Assembly: GCF_011045195.1 (NCBI RefSeq)
Contig: NZ_CP049200.1
Span: 124,001-188,000 of the forward strand
Origin: Caulobacter soli
GTDB taxonomy: Bacteria; Pseudomonadota; Alphaproteobacteria; Caulobacterales; Caulobacteraceae
DNA: 64,000 nt
Reading direction: 5' to 3'
The position numbers and the translations under genes were made by a program. The notes below the pieces were generated by a model. That model did no database searches, was not told the DNA's origin, and saw only the letters and a list, made by a program, of their open reading frames with translations. This document shows positions 11,259 to 21,101 of this stretch, in pieces. Position 1 is the stretch's first letter. Every line of letters starts with the position of its first letter.

Positions 11259-12197
11259 ATGTTGCTCACCAGAGCCGTTTCCAATTTTCTTGCCTATTGC
11301 GCTCTTGAGCGAAGACTTTCCCCGCTAACGGTCAACGCCTATGCCTCTGACCTGCGCGACTTCTCGAACTACGCTGCGCAATGTGACCTATTGAGCGATG
11401 TCTCCTGCGAAACACTGAGATCCTATCTCGACCATCTGCTCAACCATCGGGGTCTGAGCACGGCGACGGCGAAGAGACGCTTCGCGAGTCTGCAGGGACT
11501 ATTCGGCTGGGCCGCGGAGGCGGACGGCTGCGAAAGCCCGTTTCAGACCTGGCGTCCGAAAATGAAACGCCCCCGCCGCCTGCCCAGGACCCTGGCGCGC
11601 GACGATTTGCAGGAACTGATCGTCCACCCCGGCGCGGCCAAGGACATCCCCAGCCATGCCCTGACCCGCACCCTTATCATCCTCCTTGCGGCGACCGGCC
11701 TGCGCGTCAGCGAGGTCTGCGCCCTCAGCCGCGACGACGTGGCGCCGGACGGATCGGCCCTGCACGTCCATGGCAAGGGTTCCAGGGACCGGGTGGTGTA
11801 TGTCGCCGACGTCGGCTTGCAGCGTCGCATCGTAAGTCTTCTGAGAGCTTGCGGAGCGGAGGCTCGGGCGCCTCTGGCGGTGGGCGCGACGGGACGGCGG
11901 TTGTCTCCAGCCGCGGTGCGCGGACGCATCCATCGCTGGGTCGCGCGCACGCGATGCACCCGGCGGGTGACGCCCCACATGCTGCGCCATACCGCCGCGA
12001 CGCTGCTGATCGAGGAAGGCGTCGACATCCGCTACGTGCAGCGGCTTCTTGGACACGCCAGCATCGCCACCACGGAGATCTATACGCATATTTCCGACGA
12101 GACCCTTCGATCGACGCTGGTGCGCGCCAATGTGATCGGCCGCATCTTCGCGCGGTCCGCCGCAAACGCCGGCGGAGGTCCCGGCCTGTGCGCATAA
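11259..12197 (+). CDS. Tyrosine recombinase, XerC/XerD-like
   Basis: This 312-residue protein has an N-terminal SAM-like DNA-binding domain (residues 1-90) and a catalytic domain with the full residue set: R149 (ATGLRVSEVCAL), K173 (HGKGSRDR), H240 and R243 (PHMLRHTAAT), H266 (LLGHASIATT) and nucleophile Y275 (EIYTHIS). The length and HxLRH pattern are those of XerC/XerD and of small integron-like or IMEX integrases rather than large phage integrases. Its stop codon TAA lies inside a 19-bp sequence that recurs in inverted orientation at 16450. A GGGAGG ribosome site precedes the ATG. It probably recombines the dif-like sites next to it or moves the whole element. Confidence 0.9.
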   Translation: MLLTRAVSNFLAYCALERRLSPLTVNAYASDLRDFSNYAAQCDLLSDVSCETLRSYLDHLLNHRGLSTATAKRRFASLQGLFGWAAEADGCESPFQTWRPKMKRPRRLPRTLARDDLQELIVHPGAAKDIPSHALTRTLIILLAATGLRVSEVCALSRDDVAPDGSALHVHGKGSRDRVVYVADVGLQRRIVSLLRACGAEARAPLAVGATGRRLSPAAVRGRIHRWVARTRCTRRVTPHMLRHTAATLLIEEGVDIRYVQRLLGHASIATTEIYTHISDETLRSTLVRANVIGRIFARSAANAGGGPGLCA

Positions 12198-12208
12198 CTC
12201 TGAATTAT
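12190..12208 (+). repeat. Left arm of a perfect 19-bp inverted repeat, dif-like
   Basis: GCGCATAACTCTGAATTAT, repeated exactly in inverse orientation at 16450-16468. With its flank it reads TGTGCGCATAA, a 7-bp centre CTCTGAA, then TTAT. The first half matches 10 of 11 positions of the XerC half of the E. coli dif site (GGTGCGCATAA). It covers the recombinase stop codon and ends 1 bp before the GTG of the next gene. Confidence 0.8.
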
Positions 12209-12209
12209 C

Positions 12210-13157
12210 GTGCCGTTGACCGCCGGAAAATCCGATGGCGCGCGCTGCCTATTGCCGCAGTCGCCCTTGTCGTCGAGCAAGGCGCTGGCCGAGCGGTTTG
12301 GTTGCGACCTCGCCGTCCCCAGCAAAACCGGCATGGGCAATGTGCTCATGTACACGCGCCTTGCCGAAGACCTGTCGCGCAAGCTCGGACGCCCCCTGAC
12401 CTTGCTGAGCGGCCCGATGCGCACCGCCGCCGGCCGCGTCGAGGATGAGGAGCCCTATCCCGTCTGGGATGAGAACCCGCATGTGGGTGGCATCATCGAT
12501 CCTTCGGACCGGCATGCGCACGACATGCTGGCGATCGAGGAAGAACAGGACAACCTCTGTCAGTTCGGCCATTTCATCGAGAATTTGGCGTTCCACTACA
12601 ATGTTCGTTCCAGCGCGCTGCGTCCCAGTCTCTTCCTGTCCCGCGCCGAGTGCATGGCCGCCATGGAACGGTTGCGGAACCTGCCGCGTCCACTGATCTG
12701 CCTTCACCCCTATGGAACGAGTTCGCCCCTGCCGGGCCACAGCTGGCACTCAGCCAACTGGCGAACCCTGATCGAGAGGATCGCGCCGCTGGGCTCACTG
12801 TTCGAGGTCGGGCTGGACGGCATCGAACACAAAAACCTCGGCCTTCCGCGGTTTCGCACGCGCGTCCGAGAAATGATGGCGCTCGTCTGGGCGAGCGATT
12901 TGTTCATCGGCTTCGACAGTTCTGTCGCCCATATCGCAACCGCCTTCGCAAAGCCGGCGATTGTGCTGTGGGAGCCAATCCGCAAAGTCGAAATCGAGGA
13001 GCGCTATCAGCGAGGCTTCGGCGCGGCGGCGGTGTCCCGTTGGGGGTATCCACAAAATCGCAATCTGATGCTGCTGGGTGATCGGAGCGATGAACTCGTC
13101 GACATCATCGAGCATCAGGCCCGCCTGAGCCTGGATTCAGTGGGGTGGCGCAGCTAA
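12210..13157 (+). CDS. Glycosyltransferase family 9-like protein
   Basis: The 315-residue protein carries the GT9 (heptosyltransferase-type) C-terminal nucleotide-sugar domain, best seen in GFDSSVAHIATAFAKPAIVLW from residue 234. An N-terminal GMGNVLMYTRLAEDL segment is typical of ADP-heptose transferase-like folds. The GTG at 12210 directly follows the dif-like repeat, and an in-frame stop lies just upstream; ATG around 12330 is a shorter alternative. No other sugar gene is nearby, so its acceptor is unknown. It converges with the STAND gene and their 3' ends overlap by 21 bp. Confidence 0.65.
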   Translation: MPLTAGKSDGARCLLPQSPLSSSKALAERFGCDLAVPSKTGMGNVLMYTRLAEDLSRKLGRPLTLLSGPMRTAAGRVEDEEPYPVWDENPHVGGIIDPSDRHAHDMLAIEEEQDNLCQFGHFIENLAFHYNVRSSALRPSLFLSRAECMAAMERLRNLPRPLICLHPYGTSSPLPGHSWHSANWRTLIERIAPLGSLFEVGLDGIEHKNLGLPRFRTRVREMMALVWASDLFIGFDSSVAHIATAFAKPAIVLWEPIRKVEIEERYQRGFGAAAVSRWGYPQNRNLMLLGDRSDELVDIIEHQARLSLDSVGWRS

Positions 13158-16100
13158 TCGCAGGCCAGCGAGGTCGACTTGCCAGGCCGCTTGGGTGACC
13201 GACGTTGCGGTTTCACCATCCTTCAGGAGACGCAGGTTCTCCACGAGACTCCTGAAGGCGCCGCTACGAGCTGGCGCGGGGTGGGGGAACGCTATCGGAC
13301 TTGGGGCCTGCGCCTGGAAGCGCGCCGCCTGGCGCGCGGCCGCGTCGAGCAGTCCTTCGATGCGCTTCTCAATCCCGGTGCGCGCCTCCAGCCATGCGGT
13401 CGCGACCGCCTCGGCCCGCTGGCGAGCCGCAACGACCGCCGCGGCGTCTCCCTTCGACAGGGCCAAGATCAGATCGGCGTTGCGCAAGGCTGGCTCAAGA
13501 TAGGTCTGGCCATATAGCGCCACGGTTATGTCGGCTTGGTCCAAGAGCTTTCGCGCCAGCGTCAGGTCGCCGCTCTTCAGACAGGCGCAGGCTCGCAGCA
13601 GGTCCAGCCTGCCGCGCATGGTCACATAGCCTTTGTCGAGGACCTCCCGGCGTAGCGCTTCGGCATCACTTTCATCGAAAACGCCTTGGGCGGCGAAGGC
13701 GGCATTGAGCAAATCGAGCCGGGCGAACGCGCGCTGGCGCGGGGTTTCCGCCAGATCAAACGCCTGCTCCAGCATGGTCAACGCCGTGAACGGCGCCTGA
13801 TCCAGATAGGCATGGGCGGTGTCGGCGAGCAGGACGGCGGCGGCGTTCTCACCGGCGCCCTGCCCAACGAACGGCGCGGAGAGGCGCGCGAAATCCAGGC
13901 TCGCGCCGGGTTGATCCAGACGCGCGCAAGCCTGGACCAGCCGGTTCGATAGCGACGTAAAGCCTTCTCGCGAGCCGCCCAGGTCCAGGAAGCGTTCGAC
14001 TGAGGTGGTGAAGGCCGACCAGTCCGCCATCTCCAAGCTGACGCCAGCGGACCTGCGCAAACCGTCACTCGCTCGATAGCGGCTTTCGCGGAGCGGAATA
14101 TCCCAGTCCGCCAACGCCAGGGACCGGGTGGCGATCGCCTCATAGGCCTCGCGCGCCTCGACCAGGGATCCAGCCGTCCACTCAGCCCAACCCAAGGCGT
14201 CCAGGATCGTCAGGTGGGTTTCGATATCCGCCGTTCCCCGAGGGTCTTCATCGGCGTAGAGCGTCGCCAGTTTGCGGGTGATCCGTAGCCGTCCGTGAAA
14301 ATCCTCGGAGAGCACGGCCTGCTCATAGGCCGCGTTCAGCAGGCGTCGCGCTGTCGCTGTGTCGCCGGCGGCGATGGCCGCGTCGCCCAAGGGTTCACAC
14401 AGCATCGGTGTCGCCGACGCCGGCTCGGCCAAGCGACCAACGAGATCCCGAAAATCGCGCGAGGCCGAGGCCGCCTCCACCGCCGCCGTCCGCATAAGAT
14501 CATGCGCGAAGCGCCACCCCCCTGAGGACGTGACCTGGACGACGCCGGCCGCCGCCATCGCGGCCAGGATCTGGCCAATCGTTTCGGCGTCCAGGCCGAT
14601 CGCGTCGGTGAGCAATGGCTCGGCGCGTTGCTCCAGGACACCCAAGAGGCCGACGACCGCCTCGGTGGAAAGACCATCGGGCAGGCGCCGCGGCGTATCC
14701 CGCCAGTCGATTTGCTCGAGTTGTTTCCGCAGGATCGACTGGCCGGAAATCTCCAGGTCGCTTGAGGCCAGGAACGCGCTTGACGCCCGAATGAGCAGTT
14801 TGCCGTCGTCCTCGGTCTGGACGACGTTGCGCGCGGTCAGGGCCGCCAGATGGCTGGTCAGCAACAAGGGCAGGCCGCCGGTCCTACGGTAGAGCGCTTC
14901 AACGATCGGCGGATCGGCGCGTCGCAGGCGAGGCGTCAGCGCCTCGACGAACGCGGCCCTTCCCAACGGGACGAGCGTTTCAACGGTCATGGACTTTACG
15001 TGACCGGCCAGGCGCTGACGGAGCGTTCGCCAATGCGGAGTGTCCTGAGCGGGGTCGGCGCGGCTTTCCAAAATCAGGCGGATGCCGCCCCAGCCAAGAT
15101 CCTCCAGGCCCGTGACCAATAGCCAGATCCATTTGGCGGAAGCCTCGGAAACGAGATGGCAGTCGCGCAGGATCAGCAGACGGTCGCCCAGAGACGCCAG
15201 GCTGCGCACCAGAATCGGGATGATCGTCTCGGGCGCGTCCGAGGCGTCGACGATGTCATCGCCCGCCGCGCGGGCCACCAGCGCTTCCGCCAACACCGCG
15301 CCAATGCGGGCCCCGCCATGCGCGCGTGCGCTGGGCGGCGTGAAAATAGCGACCAGGATCCTCTGCAGCAGACTGGCCTCCCCGGTCGCCTCAAGGGTGA
15401 AGCGGTCGGCGTCGAAGCCGTGGAAGGCCCGCAGATTGGCGGCCAGTCGTTCGCAGAAATATGACTTTCCAACGCCGGCGACGCCTTCGACCAGAAGCAA
15501 TCGTGGCGTCGCGGCCCCCGCGAGCCGCGCGACCATGGTCCGGGTTTTCTCATCGCGGAGATCGTCTTGGACGCCCGGACCAGCCGTGGTGACCCTTAGC
15601 GGAACGGCGGGCATGGCCGACAGCGAAGCGCCGCCTCCACCCAGAATGACGAACATGCCGAAGTTGGCCTCGATCGCGGGTTCGGCAAACCGCATGAGGG
15701 CGTCAAACCGCAGGCCGGTGGCCGTCGAGCGCCGCGTGACCTGGGTGAGCTCGCAGCCGGCGGCGGCCGGTGCGAAGTCGAGCAAATGGTCGTTGCGCCT
15801 TGTCGCCGCGACGGCGGAGAGTCGATACAAGATACCGGCTTCCAGCCGGATGCCCGTCCCGGGCGGCTCCTCTGACGAATAGATCACCGGTTCGATGAAT
15901 GCGCGGCATTCGGAGATCGACCAGACGACCTGGGCGGTCGGGCTGGCGACGTCCCGCGATTCGACAAGCGTTGATCCGCGCCACGTGTCGGCGATCAAAT
16001 CTCCAAGCACGAAATGCCGAAAGACCGGATAGCGAAACATCGGCTGACGCTGCGGGTCGCCACTGAACAGTGCGTAGGCGTAGTCGATCGCCTGAGGCAG

Positions 16101-16451
16101 CAGGTGGGTCGATGACACCAGGTTCAGCGATAGGGGCTGATCGCGAACGCCGACCACCAGGGTCTTGGCGATCGTATCCAGCTCCAGCGGCCGGCTGTGA
16201 TGCTTACACTCGAAATAGTGCAGACGCGCCTCGGTGGGGAGGAAGGCTGGGCCAGGACGAGCACGTTCGGAGACCACGATGTCGATCGCGCCCTTGGGGT
16301 GTTCCTGCAGGTCGCAGCCATCCGGGAACTCCAAGACTTGCTCGACCATGGCCCAGAAGACCAACTTCTGGAAATCGTACCCACCGAGCGCGTCGGGTTC
16401 CTGGCCAGATCGCATTCGCGTCAGCAATGCCTTGGCTTCGGCGTAGATCAT
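13137..16451 (-). CDS. PD-(D/E)XK nuclease-STAND ATPase-TPR protein, putative anti-phage defence
   Basis: This 1104-residue protein begins with a restriction-endonuclease-like fold: GYDFQKLVFWAMVEQVL, then D57 in GAIDIVV and E81-x-K83 in YFECKHH, which is the D...ExK pattern. A P-loop follows at G323-S330 (GVAGVGKS) and a Walker B at 425-430 (LLILRD), with LILESRA downstream, as in STAND NTPases. From about residue 690 to 1000 there are repeated helical hairpins resembling TPRs. The order nuclease, STAND, TPR sensor is that of Avs-type and related NLR-like defence proteins, although it is shorter than most Avs proteins. The ATG lies inside the right arm of the 19-bp inverted repeat. The function is inferred from architecture only. 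Confidence 0.75.
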   Translation of the reverse strand: MIYAEAKALLTRMRSGQEPDALGGYDFQKLVFWAMVEQVLEFPDGCDLQEHPKGAIDIVVSERARPGPAFLPTEARLHYFECKHHSRPLELDTIAKTLVVGVRDQPLSLNLVSSTHLLPQAIDYAYALFSGDPQRQPMFRYPVFRHFVLGDLIADTWRGSTLVESRDVASPTAQVVWSISECRAFIEPVIYSSEEPPGTGIRLEAGILYRLSAVAATRRNDHLLDFAPAAAGCELTQVTRRSTATGLRFDALMRFAEPAIEANFGMFVILGGGGASLSAMPAVPLRVTTAGPGVQDDLRDEKTRTMVARLAGAATPRLLLVEGVAGVGKSYFCERLAANLRAFHGFDADRFTLEATGEASLLQRILVAIFTPPSARAHGGARIGAVLAEALVARAAGDDIVDASDAPETIIPILVRSLASLGDRLLILRDCHLVSEASAKWIWLLVTGLEDLGWGGIRLILESRADPAQDTPHWRTLRQRLAGHVKSMTVETLVPLGRAAFVEALTPRLRRADPPIVEALYRRTGGLPLLLTSHLAALTARNVVQTEDDGKLLIRASSAFLASSDLEISGQSILRKQLEQIDWRDTPRRLPDGLSTEAVVGLLGVLEQRAEPLLTDAIGLDAETIGQILAAMAAAGVVQVTSSGGWRFAHDLMRTAAVEAASASRDFRDLVGRLAEPASATPMLCEPLGDAAIAAGDTATARRLLNAAYEQAVLSEDFHGRLRITRKLATLYADEDPRGTADIETHLTILDALGWAEWTAGSLVEAREAYEAIATRSLALADWDIPLRESRYRASDGLRRSAGVSLEMADWSAFTTSVERFLDLGGSREGFTSLSNRLVQACARLDQPGASLDFARLSAPFVGQGAGENAAAVLLADTAHAYLDQAPFTALTMLEQAFDLAETPRQRAFARLDLLNAAFAAQGVFDESDAEALRREVLDKGYVTMRGRLDLLRACACLKSGDLTLARKLLDQADITVALYGQTYLEPALRNADLILALSKGDAAAVVAARQRAEAVATAWLEARTGIEKRIEGLLDAAARQAARFQAQAPSPIAFPHPAPARSGAFRSLVENLRLLKDGETATSVTQAAWQVDLAGLRLAAPPH

Positions 16452-16468
16452 AATTCAGAGTTATGCGC
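16450..16468 (-). repeat. Right arm of the 19-bp inverted repeat, dif-like
   Basis: Exact reverse complement of 12190-12208. Read on the minus strand it gives CCGCGCATAA, centre CTCTGAA, then TTATGATC, which matches 8 of 11 and 7 of 11 positions of the two dif half-sites. It lies between the stop of the 395-residue gene and the body of the nuclease-STAND gene, and contains part of that gene's ATG. Confidence 0.8.
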
Positions 16469-16505: not shown

Positions 16506-17693
16506 TCAGGCGGTGATCTTCAGCCGTGTCCAGAGCGCGGCGAGCATCGTCGCGGTCGCCTCCCTCAGGCTGGCGTCATTGCGGATCGCGGCCGCATAGG
16601 CCGTCACCGCGGCGCCGACGATCTCCCGCTCGCGATCCGCCCGCAAAGCCCGCATGGCTAGGCGGCGTTCCGGAGCGATTTGCCCGCTGGATAGTTCGGC
16701 CTGCAGTTCATCGATTGGCACGTAGGGCGGCAAGGTGGTGTTGATCCGAAGACCGCCCACATCGACGATCACGACGCCGTCGCGCCAGAGGTTGGGTCCC
16801 TTGTCATTGTCCTTGCGGCGGATCTCTCCGGTGAGAAACACCCTGACCGAAGGCGCGGCCAATCCCTTGGCCAGCAACGCCATGCTCACCGCGTTCGAGA
16901 CGCCCCGGCAAAAGCGCCATTCCAGCTCGTCCCAGCGCTGCTCGACGCTCATCGCGGCGCGATCGTCCTCTCGCAGCCTGGCGCGTTCGGCGAAGATCAG
17001 GTTGCAACGGTTGCGCGCGAAGAGCGCGGTGATCTTGGCGGCGTTTTCAGGACTGATCCGGCCGCCCGAAAGCACGGGCAGGCCATAGGCGCGAAGCAGC
17101 AGCAGGTTGGCGACGTGATCGGCCTCAAAATCGGAGTCCTCGCGGGCGTAACCGCCGAAGTCGCGATAGTTGGCGGTGGTGATGCCCTGCAGGGCCCGGT
17201 GAACGAAGTTGTGCCAGAAATTCTTGACCAGATAATTGGTCGCGCAGTGGCGCACGAAGCTTGGCGACGTCGAATCGCCGCCAAAATCGGCCAGGCCCAG
17301 CTCGACGTCCGAGCCCCTGGGCGGGGTCAGCTTGGCGTAGCCCCAGTCGAGAAAAGGTTCGGGCACAACGAACCGGGCGACCCGCGTCTTGGCGGTGTGT
17401 GGAAAATCCACGTCGCAATAAAAGAAGTACTCGGCTTGAAACTGATCGTTGTTGGTCGTGAACGCGTCCCGCTGCGTGGGATGAAAACGGATGAGGTCCT
17501 TGTCCCAGTCGTTCTTCACGAACAGCGCCGCCAATTCATCATCGGACCGGGCCAGCTTGGCTGACCGGCACCGATCATGCGGCGGTTTCGAATTCAGTGT
17601 CGCGGCGACCCGACGAAGGGCGTTGCGAAAGCACTCGGCATACCAATCCGGACGAGCGCTCACGCTCCCGTCAGGCCACGCGGCCTCAGACAT
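16506..17693 (-). CDS. Hypothetical protein upstream of the nuclease-STAND gene
   Basis: I do not recognise this 395-residue protein. It is soluble, without signal peptide or membrane segment, rich in Trp, Phe and Tyr in the first half (for example AEYFFYCDVDFPHTAKTRVARF and NFWHNFVHRALQG), with charged helices in the second half. It is on the same strand as, and 54 bp upstream of, the nuclease-STAND gene, so the two may be co-transcribed through the dif-like repeat. A defence accessory role is possible from position only. The start ATG at 17693 gives a good fit to the divergent intergenic space. Confidence 0.6.
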   Translation of the reverse strand: MSEAAWPDGSVSARPDWYAECFRNALRRVAATLNSKPPHDRCRSAKLARSDDELAALFVKNDWDKDLIRFHPTQRDAFTTNNDQFQAEYFFYCDVDFPHTAKTRVARFVVPEPFLDWGYAKLTPPRGSDVELGLADFGGDSTSPSFVRHCATNYLVKNFWHNFVHRALQGITTANYRDFGGYAREDSDFEADHVANLLLLRAYGLPVLSGGRISPENAAKITALFARNRCNLIFAERARLREDDRAAMSVEQRWDELEWRFCRGVSNAVSMALLAKGLAAPSVRVFLTGEIRRKDNDKGPNLWRDGVVIVDVGGLRINTTLPPYVPIDELQAELSSGQIAPERRLAMRALRADREREIVGAAVTAYAAAIRNDASLREATATMLAALWTRLKITA

Positions 17694-18030: not shown

Positions 18031-18375
18031 ATGCCGCCGCTGCTCAAAGCCCGTCCAGCATCACCCGGCGCCCTGCGCTTGGCCTTGGGTCTGGCGCTCG
18101 CGACCCTCCTGGCCGGGCCGGCCCTGGCGGGCGGCACGGGCGGGGGCATGCCGTGGGACGATTGGATGACCTCGATCGCCGACTCCATCACCGGGCCGGT
18201 GGCCAAGGCGATCGGGGTGATCGCCATCGCCGCCACGGCCCTGGGGGTGGCGATCTCGGAGGGCGGGTCGTGGGTGCGCAAGGGCATGCAGGTGATGTTC
18301 GCCCTGTCCATCGCCTTCAGCGCCTCGACCTTCTTCCTGGGCTTTCTGGGCTTCACCGGCGGGGCGGGGTTCTGA
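18031..18375 (+). CDS. trbC: Type IV secretion pilin TrbC (VirB2)
   Basis: The 114-residue protein has a signal peptide (hydrophobic run around LRLALGLALATLLAGPALAGG) and two membrane helices, GVIAIAATALGVAISEGG and MFALSIAFSASTFFLGFLGF, as expected for a VirB2/TrbC pilin precursor. The segment SITGPVAKAIGVIAIAATALG is typical. It is the first trb gene here and ends with a TGATG overlap into trbD. In the canonical order trbB precedes it, but it is absent. An AGGGA ribosome site precedes the ATG. Confidence 0.88.
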   Translation: MPPLLKARPASPGALRLALGLALATLLAGPALAGGTGGGMPWDDWMTSIADSITGPVAKAIGVIAIAATALGVAISEGGSWVRKGMQVMFALSIAFSASTFFLGFLGFTGGAGF

Positions 18376-18638
18376 TGAGCGCCGCGCCGGACGGTTTCGA
18401 AATCGATTTCCATGGCTCGCTGTCGGAGACGGTGACCCTGGCGGGCGTGCCGCGGATGGCCGCGATCCTGATCGGCGCCCTGACGGCGGTTCTGGCGCTG
18501 GGCCTGCAGACGCCGTGGATCGGCCTGCCGCTGGGCGCCCTGCTCTACGGAACGGCGCTGTGGATGGCCAAGCGCGATCCGTACGTCTTCGACATCCTGG
18601 GCCGGCATCTGCGCCAGCCCGACTATCTGGACGGCTAG
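18375..18638 (+). CDS. trbD: Type IV secretion protein TrbD (VirB3)
   Basis: This 87-residue protein is a small inner-membrane component of the mating-pair-formation channel. It has the VirB3 pattern: a short N-terminal strand (GFEIDFHGSLSETVTLAGVPR), one membrane hairpin (MAAILIGALTAVLALGL, then WIGLPLGALLYGTALWMA) and the conserved ending KRDPYVFDILGRHLRQPDYL. It shares one base with trbC and is followed after 3 bp by trbE. Confidence 0.88.
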   Translation: MSAAPDGFEIDFHGSLSETVTLAGVPRMAAILIGALTAVLALGLQTPWIGLPLGALLYGTALWMAKRDPYVFDILGRHLRQPDYLDG

Positions 18639-18641
18639 GCG

Positions 18642-21101
18642 ATGCTGTTTCTCAACGAGTATCGTTCGCGCTCCAGCCGCCTGTCGGATCATCTGCCCTG
18701 GGCCCTGCTGATCGCGCCTGGCGTGGTGCTCAACAAGGACGGTGCGTTCCAGCAAAGCCTGGAGTTTCGCGGGCCGGACCTGGCCAGCGCCACTCCCGCC
18801 GGGCTGATGGCCGTGCGCGCTCAGCTCAACAACGCCCTGCGCCGCCTGGGCTCGGGCTGGTGCCTGCACGTCGAGGCCGTGCGGGCCGCCTCCCAGTCCT
18901 ATCCGCCCAGCGCCTTCCCCGATCCCGTCAGCCATCTGATCGACGAGGAGCGGCGCGCGGGGTTCGAGGCCGAAGGCGCGCATTTCGAAAGCCGCTACTA
19001 CGCCACCTTCACCTACTTGCCCGCCCAGGATGTCATCGGCCGGGCCGAGAGCCTGCTGGTGGAGAACCTGCCCCAGGGCCGGGGCGCGGCCGGTCTCTAC
19101 CGCCTGGCGCTGGAGGAGTTTCGCGCCACGGTCGCGGGGGTTCGCGACATCCTGTCGGGGGTGTTTCCGCTGGTGCGGCCGCTCGACGACGCTGAGACCC
19201 TGACCTATCTGCACGCCTGCGTCTCCACCAAGCGCCATCCGGTCACGCCGCCCGATCCGCCGGCCTATCTCGACGCGGTCCTGACCGACGACGATTTCCA
19301 GGGCGGGCTGCATCCGCGCCTGGGCGAGCTCTACCTGCGCACCATCTCGGTGCGGGCCTATCCGTCCGCATCGTGGCCGGGGATTCTCGACCAGCTCAAC
19401 AGCCTGGGCGTGGCCTATCGCTGGGTCTGCCGGTTCCTGCCGCTGGACAAGGAGGACGCGCGGCGGTCGATCACCACCTTGCGCAAGCGCTGGTTCTCCA
19501 AGCGCAAAGGCATGTTGGCGCTCCTGAAGGAAGCCATCACCCACGAGCCCTCGCTGCTGGAGGATCCCGACGCCCTGCAAAAGACCCAGGACGCCGACGC
19601 GGCCTTGACGATCCTGGGCGGAGATGCGGCGTCCATGGGCTATTTCACGCCCACGGTGACCCTCGTCGACGCCGATCCCGATCGCCTGGCCGCCAAGGCG
19701 CGGCTGGTGGACGGGGTCATCAACCGCGCCGGCTTCGTGACCAAGATCGAGGACCTCAACGCCGTGGAGGCCTGGCTTGGCGGCCTGCCCGGCCAGGCCT
19801 ACGCCGACGTGCGTCGGCCCATGGTCAGCACGCTCAATCTCTGCGACGTGCTGCCGGTCTCGGCGATCTGGCCTGGGCCCGTCCGCAACGCCCACCTGAC
19901 CCAAGAGTGCGCCAAGCAGGGCTTCGCGGGGGTGCAGCCGCCGCTGATGCACGCCCGCACCGATCTCACCACGCCTTTTCGGCTGGATCTCCATCAGGGC
20001 GATGTCGGTCACACCTTCGTCGTCGGCCCGACCGGGGCGGGCAAATCGGTGCTGCTCAACATCCTGGCCTTGCAGTGGCGGCGCTATCCCAGCGCCCGGG
20101 TGGTGATCTTCGACAAGGGCCGCAGCAGCCGCGCCTCGAGCCTGCTGGTGGGCGGGGGGTTCTACGACCTGGGTCCGTGGGACGATGAGCTGTCGTTTCA
20201 GCCCCTTGCCGCGATCGATCGCGCCGACGAGCGGATCTGGGCCCAGGACTGGATCTTGGACCTGCTGGCGGCGTCCGGCGTGGCGGCCGATCCCGCCGCC
20301 AAGGACGAGCTTTGGAAAGCCCTGGCCAATCTGGCCGCCGGTCCGCGCGAGCAGCGGACCCTGACGGTCCTGGCCGCCACCCTTCAGGACATGGCGCTCA
20401 AGGCCGCGCTCAAGCCTTTCACCTTGGAAGGACCTCATGGACGCCTGCTGGACGCCGCGGCCGAACGCCTGACCATGCGCGCCTGGCAGGCCTTCGAGCT
20501 GGGCGGCCTGATGGAGAGCCCCGCCGCGCTCGGCCCGGTGCTGACCTATCTCTTCCATGTCCTGGAGCGCGGCTTCGACGGCCGACCGACCATCCTCGTC
20601 CTGGACGAAGCCTGGCGTTTCCTGGAGTCGACCGCCTTCGCGCTGAAGATCCGCGAGTGGCTCTGGACCGTTCGCAAGCTCAATGTCAGCGTGGTGTTCA
20701 GCACGCTGAGCCTGTCGAGCATCGCCGCAAGCCCGATCGCCGCGGCCTTGATGGAAGCTTGTCCGACCCGGATCTTCCTCCCCAATCCGGAGGCCCGATC
20801 TCCATTGGTGGCCCGGGGTTACGCCGACTTCGGCCTCAATGATCAGCAGATCGAGATCATCGCCGCCGCCGCGCCCAAGCGCGAGTACTACTATCAGAGC
20901 GCGGCCGGAAACCGCCTGTTCGAGTTGGGGCTGGGGCCTGTCGCCCTGGCGGCGGTCGGCTCGGCCAGCCCGGGCGACCAGGCCCTGATCGATCGTCTGC
21001 TGGCCGACGGCGGCGCCGACGGGTTCGCGGCGGCCTTCTACCGCGCCAAGGGTCTGGCCGAGGTCGGTGATTTTCTCGACGAGGCCCGGCGTGCGGCCTG
21101 A
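18642..21101 (+). CDS. trbE: Type IV secretion ATPase TrbE (VirB4)
   Basis: At 819 residues this is a full-length VirB4-family ATPase that powers pilus assembly and substrate transfer. The N-terminal CagE/TrbE domain covers about residues 180-390. The ATPase domain has Walker A at G462-S469 (GPTGAGKS) and Walker B ending at D655-E656 (ILVLDEAW), with the following WTVRKLNVSVVFSTLSL arm typical of the family. It lies 3 bp after trbD and its end overlaps the next small gene by 11 bp. Confidence 0.95.
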   Translation: MLFLNEYRSRSSRLSDHLPWALLIAPGVVLNKDGAFQQSLEFRGPDLASATPAGLMAVRAQLNNALRRLGSGWCLHVEAVRAASQSYPPSAFPDPVSHLIDEERRAGFEAEGAHFESRYYATFTYLPAQDVIGRAESLLVENLPQGRGAAGLYRLALEEFRATVAGVRDILSGVFPLVRPLDDAETLTYLHACVSTKRHPVTPPDPPAYLDAVLTDDDFQGGLHPRLGELYLRTISVRAYPSASWPGILDQLNSLGVAYRWVCRFLPLDKEDARRSITTLRKRWFSKRKGMLALLKEAITHEPSLLEDPDALQKTQDADAALTILGGDAASMGYFTPTVTLVDADPDRLAAKARLVDGVINRAGFVTKIEDLNAVEAWLGGLPGQAYADVRRPMVSTLNLCDVLPVSAIWPGPVRNAHLTQECAKQGFAGVQPPLMHARTDLTTPFRLDLHQGDVGHTFVVGPTGAGKSVLLNILALQWRRYPSARVVIFDKGRSSRASSLLVGGGFYDLGPWDDELSFQPLAAIDRADERIWAQDWILDLLAASGVAADPAAKDELWKALANLAAGPREQRTLTVLAATLQDMALKAALKPFTLEGPHGRLLDAAAERLTMRAWQAFELGGLMESPAALGPVLTYLFHVLERGFDGRPTILVLDEAWRFLESTAFALKIREWLWTVRKLNVSVVFSTLSLSSIAASPIAAALMEACPTRIFLPNPEARSPLVARGYADFGLNDQQIEIIAAAAPKREYYYQSAAGNRLFELGLGPVALAAVGSASPGDQALIDRLLADGGADGFAAAFYRAKGLAEVGDFLDEARRAA

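Follow-up and report, generated by a model that had tools for sequence, protein, structure and literature searches.

Candidate invertible cassette of Caulobacter soli

We describe here a 4.3-kb segment of Caulobacter soli DNA that quite probably is an invertible cassette, in which inversion would exchange two unrelated genes behind the promoter on the side of a neighbouring recombinase gene. The window analysed, 64,000 nt in length, covers positions 124001-188000 of contig C2 (420.5 kb) in a genome of two contigs and 5.68 Mb. A preliminary description of the window had noticed a perfect 19-bp inverted repeat around two convergent genes, with a tyrosine recombinase gene ending inside its left arm, and both observations were borne out. 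The 19-mer, GCGCATAACTCTGAATTAT, occurs at 12190-12208 on the forward strand and at 16450-16468 on the reverse strand, the two arms being 100% complementary and 4241 nt apart, and with up to three mismatches allowed these same two copies are the total both for the window (0.01 expected; two copies reached in 0 of 100 shuffles) and for the whole genome.

Each arm holds a candidate recombination site. The left one reads GCGC, ATAA, a 7-nt centre (CTCTGAA) and TTAT, with its core at 12194-12208, and the right one is its inverted copy, with its core at 16450-16464. The pair is thus inverted and identical, its centre is non-palindromic, and it is linked to the gene (11259-12197, forward strand) for a 312-residue Xer-type tyrosine recombinase (PF00589, E 1.4e-32; PF02899, E 2e-13), a combination expected of a site-specific invertible element. 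Catalytic-type motifs of the recombinase lie near residues 146-150 (R), 171-175 (K), 240-244 (HxxR), 263-267 (H) and 274-278 (Y). Sites and genes interlock closely: the stop codon of the recombinase gene, TAA, forms part of the left ATAA, the GTG start of a 315-residue open reading frame (ORF) lies 1 nt beyond the left arm, and the right arm supplies part of the ATG of a 1104-residue ORF. The earlier statement that each arm lies between the stop of an outside gene and the start of an inside gene therefore holds in a refined form, one stop falling within the left arm and one start partly within the right.

In the mechanism that we propose, the adjacent recombinase would recombine the two inverted ATAA-N7-TTAT sites, and because these are inverted and have a non-palindromic centre, the product would be inversion of the 4.3-kb segment. 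As there is almost no leader before the inner genes within the cassette, the promoter must be external, and inversion would exchange the inner gene behind the recombinase gene with that behind a 395-residue ORF on the far side, and so would most likely set which of the two forms the final cistron in the recombinase's transcription unit. At loci where the recombinase gene points away from the site (L105, L107, L108 and L114), the promoter would sit between the two. In the window, the predicted outcome is that a GT9-like enzyme is expressed in alternation with an ATPase of STAND type and probably of immune type.

The first of these is encoded on the forward strand at 12210-13157 (315 residues), where a GT9-like glycosyltransferase is predicted (PF01075, E 1.1e-6, above the cut-off). 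Its residues 19-298 are 41.8% identical to an ORF of a Nostoc plasmid, on which no inverted ATAA-N7-TTAT pair was present in the 18.8 kb examined. The second, on the reverse strand at 13137-16451 (1104 residues), is a putative AAA/STAND-type ATPase (AAA_16, E 2.2e-5, below the Pfam cut-off) with a weak TPR match (TPR_12, E 0.034) and, in its N-terminal stretch, an ECKxxSR motif that by eye resembles the Mrr-type proteins of loci L006 and L114. The two genes are convergent and their 3′ ends share 21 bp. The 1104-residue protein had no match among solved structures and none in PADLOC at E 0.01, none of the four window proteins (0 of 4) matched a PADLOC defence model at E 0.001, and a fold prediction for the N-terminal 290 residues of the 1104-residue protein was discarded at a pLDDT of 32. 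The outer ORF (16506-17693, reverse strand, 395 residues) faces the right site and ends 37 nt short of the right arm; it belongs to no recognised family, with no Pfam match up to E 10 and none in NCBIfam. Homologs of the 1104- and 395-residue proteins were absent from the plasmid collection.

Recurrence of the layout in four phyla

The recombinase of Methylobacterium plasmid pMRAD01, 39.8% identical to that of the window, also ends in an inverted repeat, of different sequence, that bounds two convergent genes, and both repeats fit ATAA-N7-TTAT. Related recombinases (30-46% identity where measured) share this layout with yet other site sequences: an inverted ATAA-N7-TTAT pair adjoins the recombinase gene and encloses two genes, mostly convergent, whose starts coincide with the sites or fall just within them. 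Counting the window, closed exact pairs number 17, from four phyla, namely six in the window's class or in named Alphaproteobacteria (the window, L096, L105, L107, L108 and L114), three in Acidobacteriota (L005, L006 and L019), two in Campylobacterota (L008 and L168) and six in Bacillota (L018, L198, L204, L206, L208 and L209, the last five assigned through their relation to Evtepia); Evtepia genome G1033 adds one that is split over three contigs.

These loci came from several searches. A sample of 384 other genomes of the class (E <= 1e-50) gave five relatives, three with a closed exact pair, one with a single site and one with none; 298 other genomes of the family (E <= 1e-45) gave one, its site at a contig end, and 397 other genomes of the phylum gave two, neither with a site. 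A scan of genome contigs gave 80 loci, with closed pairs in five. Among 19 plasmid regions, fetched around recombinase matches out of thousands of weaker matches, exact pairs occurred in three (L096, L114 and L168) and a pair with a mismatch in L098. The family of G1033 (299 other genomes, E <= 1e-70) held 14 relatives, nine with a site and five with a closed pair, and searches in the orders of G524 and G388 took in two and five genomes, respectively. The viral contigs contained one weak recombinase relative, which lacked a motif site.

Chance does not readily produce this arrangement, an adjacent exact pair being found in 0 of 520 dinucleotide shuffles against 12 of 26 real loci, where the real loci include some picked for a visible pair and only the shuffles act as control. 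In a quick tree of 54 recombinases, midpoint-rooted and with long branches, all 27 site-bearing proteins fall within one branch of 42 rows (SH-aLRT 93), outside which lie ten other recombinases and the two Xer-type proteins of the large contig of the window's genome.

That separation bears on the suggestion that the segment is akin to pdif modules moved by the host XerC and XerD proteins, to which we give hardly any weight. pdif modules and dif/XerCD, of which Acinetobacter provides examples, depend on host XerC/XerD, and the half-sites of dif are spaced 6 nt apart. With the window they have in common an ATAA...TTAT look and a Xer-type enzyme, and the left arm, TGTGCGCATAA, looks like a half-site for XerC with E. 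coli dif as reference. However, the window has a 7-nt centre, identical on both sides, an inverted identical pair and a recombinase of its own alongside. This third Xer-type recombinase of the genome lies on another branch than the two on the chromosome-sized contig, and it reaches neither chromosomal equivalog cut-off in NCBIfam, its best match being XerC at 212 bits against 335, with XerD at 189 against 330. The comparison with the host dif site, which had been proposed at the outset, yielded 37 matches to the dif-like pattern, all at three mismatches, against 38 in the reversed control, so that the pattern matched no better than its control and the host dif was not recognised. The proposed kinship with pdif and other Xer-exploiting elements was accordingly given up.

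G directly precedes ATAA in 20 of 26 sites, and centre positions 4-7, read from outside to inside, contain at least three purines in 12 of 13 cassettes (the exception being G1033), a run that may serve as a ribosome-binding site. The recombinase stop codon lies within ATAA in the window, pMRAD01 and L006, and in most cassettes outside Bacillota the inner genes start 0 to about 20 nt inside the site, with the large-gene starts of L006 and L114 uncertain. In L197 and L198 the site forms an extended palindrome about its 7-nt centre, which is what symmetric half-sites would give. Other arrangements were also seen. Direct or clustered, array-like sites lie by recombinase relatives in L023 (10953/10988 and 12140/12175) and L020 (142, 177 and 314). 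Near the first cassette of the acidobacterial locus L006, a second inverted pair, ATAACTAGGAATTAT (16123 and 17802, 1.7 kb apart), bounds a further ORF, with no recombinase of its own noted, and on an Agrobacterium plasmid (L119, position 8811) a fragmentary recombinase relative ends near a single ATAACTAGGAATTAT, its core being that of the second L006 pair. On nine Roseobacter-group plasmids, a single ATAA-N8 to N12-TTAT site with a conserved ATTATCGTTAC arm stands upstream of the recombinase gene and is perhaps a resolution site.

Plasmid multimer resolution, with the second inverted site a by-product, could in principle be the task of the recombinase, and L097, L112, L113, L115-L118, L120 and L121, where one ATAA-N8 to N12-TTAT without a partner precedes a related recombinase gene by about 80-100 nt, would fit such a role. 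The pairs of the 17 loci are, however, inverted rather than direct and the inner genes begin at the sites, and many of the loci lie on large contigs that are not known plasmids, so that we consider this account highly unlikely.

Cargo of the cassettes

Taking the 17 closed cassettes together with that of G1033, 12 of 18 encode an AAA/STAND, TPR, TIR, SIR2 or Mrr-type protein. Nine of them do so by a domain match above a Pfam cut-off (L096, L105, L114, L006, L168, G1033, L198, L206 and L209), L107 is included as a 48% homolog of L105, and the window and L018 by matches below the cut-off. The cargo of L108 (a homolog of the L018 protein) and L208 (803 residues, no match) is uncertain, and four cassettes carry other genes: lycopene-cyclase-like in L005, a methyltransferase in L008, a weak carotenoid-synthesis match in L019 and spermine-synthase-like in L204. 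The partner is of ATP-grasp type in L096, L168, G1033 and L208, with weaker or homology-based assignments in L108 and L018; it is a glycosyltransferase in the window, L114 and L209, and a PEP mutase/methyltransferase in L105 and L107. Not every cassette is a simple convergent pair, that of L209 being 7.7 kb long with extra ORFs, two of which share the strand of its first gene. The Phaeobacter cassette of L114 (5995-6690 and 6621-7777) includes a HAD hydrolase as its third gene and has its glycosyltransferase divided between two ORFs. Many of the cassettes, though not all, invite a defence reading, which for the window is suggested by protein domains, no PADLOC model having matched.

The cargo also provides the chief argument for a different view, in which both inner genes form one module that is expressed either way from flanking promoters, the flip altering their ratio or permitting their proteins to meet. 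In L206 (9698-11939, oriented by the recombinase), a ThsA-like protein (E 7.8e-101) is encoded convergently, on opposite strands, with a TIR protein (ThsB model, E 1e-10), and Thoeris requires both a ThsA-type and a TIR-type protein. Gene pairs are likewise conserved across distant hosts, ATP-grasp-like with TPR-type in L108 and L018 and PEP mutase with hydrolase-STAND in L105 and L107, and in the window each inner gene has a co-directional ORF ahead of it. Nonetheless, some pairs have no obvious joint role, such as the methyltransferase and membrane-like ORF of L008, and the far-flank ORFs face inward at some loci and outward at others. We regard the module as unlikely.

Signs of inversion

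At 15-20 bp, such a repeat falls short of the word length usual in assembly and should break a contig only where the reads diverge into two continuations. The isolate Evtepia gabavorous KLE1738 (G1033) has four copies of the site, two of them 3 bp from the two ends of the 4428-bp contig C46 and the others at one end each of C67, on the recombinase side, and C20. The 4.4-kb cassette thus forms a contig of its own and both flanks end at the site, as would be expected were both orientations to coexist. Eleven draft contigs bearing a recombinase gene end 0-9 bp beyond the site (L007, L009, L013, L014, L016, L017, L021, L022, L104 of G239, L200 and L205), far-flank contigs likewise end at the site in G1033, G1038, G1040 and G583 (8 bp), and both G1039 contigs and one G583 contig end 121-124 bp past it. 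A contig end within 300 nt past the recombinase match was found in 8 of 17 site-bearing loci and 1 of 63 others (Fisher p 6.7e-6), where the 63 are mostly Bacteroidota, the eight include L015 even though its contig extends 123 nt beyond the site, and L017, with its site 384 nt after the stop and a contig end 7 nt past it, exceeded the 300-nt limit and was left out. Mixed strains could cause such ends in metagenome assemblies, but hardly in an isolate. In 10 cassettes compared, the inner gene on the recombinase side is the small one in six (window, L096, L114, L006, L018 and L208) and the large one in four (L105, L107, L108 and L168); three Phaeobacter plasmid records, compared for orientation, were identical over the query and so gave no information.

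Several observations weigh against a switch. The assembly of the window itself shows a single orientation, no relative sharing its inner genes was found for a comparison of orientation, and a promoter search gave one consensus match against 0.6 expected, none convincing. Eight closed pairs in draft genomes, from the searches that also yielded the broken ones, were assembled unbroken (L105, L107, L108, L005, L006, L008, L018 and L019). In L003 a site is present with no partner in the 3 kb examined, the copies of L023 are direct and those of L020 short-spaced, and 15 of the 42 recombinases of the branch lack an ATAA-N7-TTAT site, seven of these having a single longer-centred one. Bacillota inner genes start about 4 to 100 nt inside the site, making an in-cassette leader possible there, and the Thoeris-like pair of L206 would normally need both of its proteins. 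For the window's strain, then, inversion is something that we infer.

Genomic context

At 18112-20000 the window contains the beginning of a conjugation operon of trb type, with 85% and 78% identity to those of two Caulobacter plasmids, whose annotated genes upstream of the operon differ from the window's. As its trb genes match these plasmids, contig C2 is itself probably a plasmid.

The preliminary description had left the choice between an invertible defence or surface switch and a mobile cassette. The switch, with one immune-like gene and one of surface type, is favoured by the layout in four phyla and by contig geometry implying both junctions in some relatives, whereas a mobile gene cassette, with the inverted sites as the ends of a captured or exchanged unit, is in our view highly unlikely. 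Content does vary between relatives, similar recombinases adjoining different cassettes in L206 and L209, and the two Caulobacter plasmids with related trb genes lack the unit near those genes, yet the borders of a mobile unit were not found: an empty one-copy site was not seen and no clean border emerged from related plasmids of Arcobacter and Phaeobacter. Moreover, centres vary between loci, so that direct exchange among them is not expected.

Relation to known systems

The cassette would belong to the invertible elements, a known kind, with unusual breadth and cargo. In Moraxella pilin inversion and the G segment of phage Mu, as is proposed for the window, an invertible segment contains two convergent coding units, one of which joins an outside promoter, but their recombinases are not of the Xer type and the units are versions of one protein, whereas those of the window are two unrelated genes beside a Xer-type enzyme. 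The Moraxella bovis inversion is named in PMC11868660. RecV of Clostridioides difficile and PsrA/hsdS of Streptococcus pneumoniae resemble the window in their tyrosine recombinase and short inverted repeats, and they invert reversibly; they move promoter-type elements or hsdS pieces, in contrast to whole unrelated genes with a site at the gene start. Conflict systems with STAND NTPases and GT4 proteins (PMC8195603) have TIR, nuclease or glycosyltransferase partners, as here, and a search of that text gave no match for recombinase or inversion. Thoeris is resembled by the ThsA-like and TIR proteins of L206, which are encoded convergently within a probably invertible segment and are not the window's own genes. 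According to PMC12529663, which studies a serine recombinase, recombinases often adjoin anti-phage genes with function unknown. Full-text searches, judged by titles and the beginnings of abstracts, brought up no published description of such cassettes, with preprints and most subscription papers outside their coverage.

On balance, we lean towards a cross-phylum class, hitherto undescribed, of Xer-type invertases dedicated to such cassettes. Their sites would also serve as the start region for two convergent genes unrelated to each other, and the invertases would toggle or gate immune effectors (STAND, TIR, SIR2 or nuclease) against biosynthetic enzymes (ATP-grasp, glycosyltransferase or PEP mutase), an invertible split Thoeris-like pair among them. 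Inversion of DNA is familiar from promoters and from alternative forms of a single gene. If the reading is true, a dedicated invertase family that swaps two unrelated genes, often exchanging a biosynthetic enzyme for an ATPase or NADase of immune type, would represent a new bet-hedging logic for costly immunity and would account for some of the orphan Xer-like recombinases near defence-like genes, and a recombinase with an inverted ATAA-N7-TTAT pair at gene starts would offer a simple signature for new candidate immune genes.
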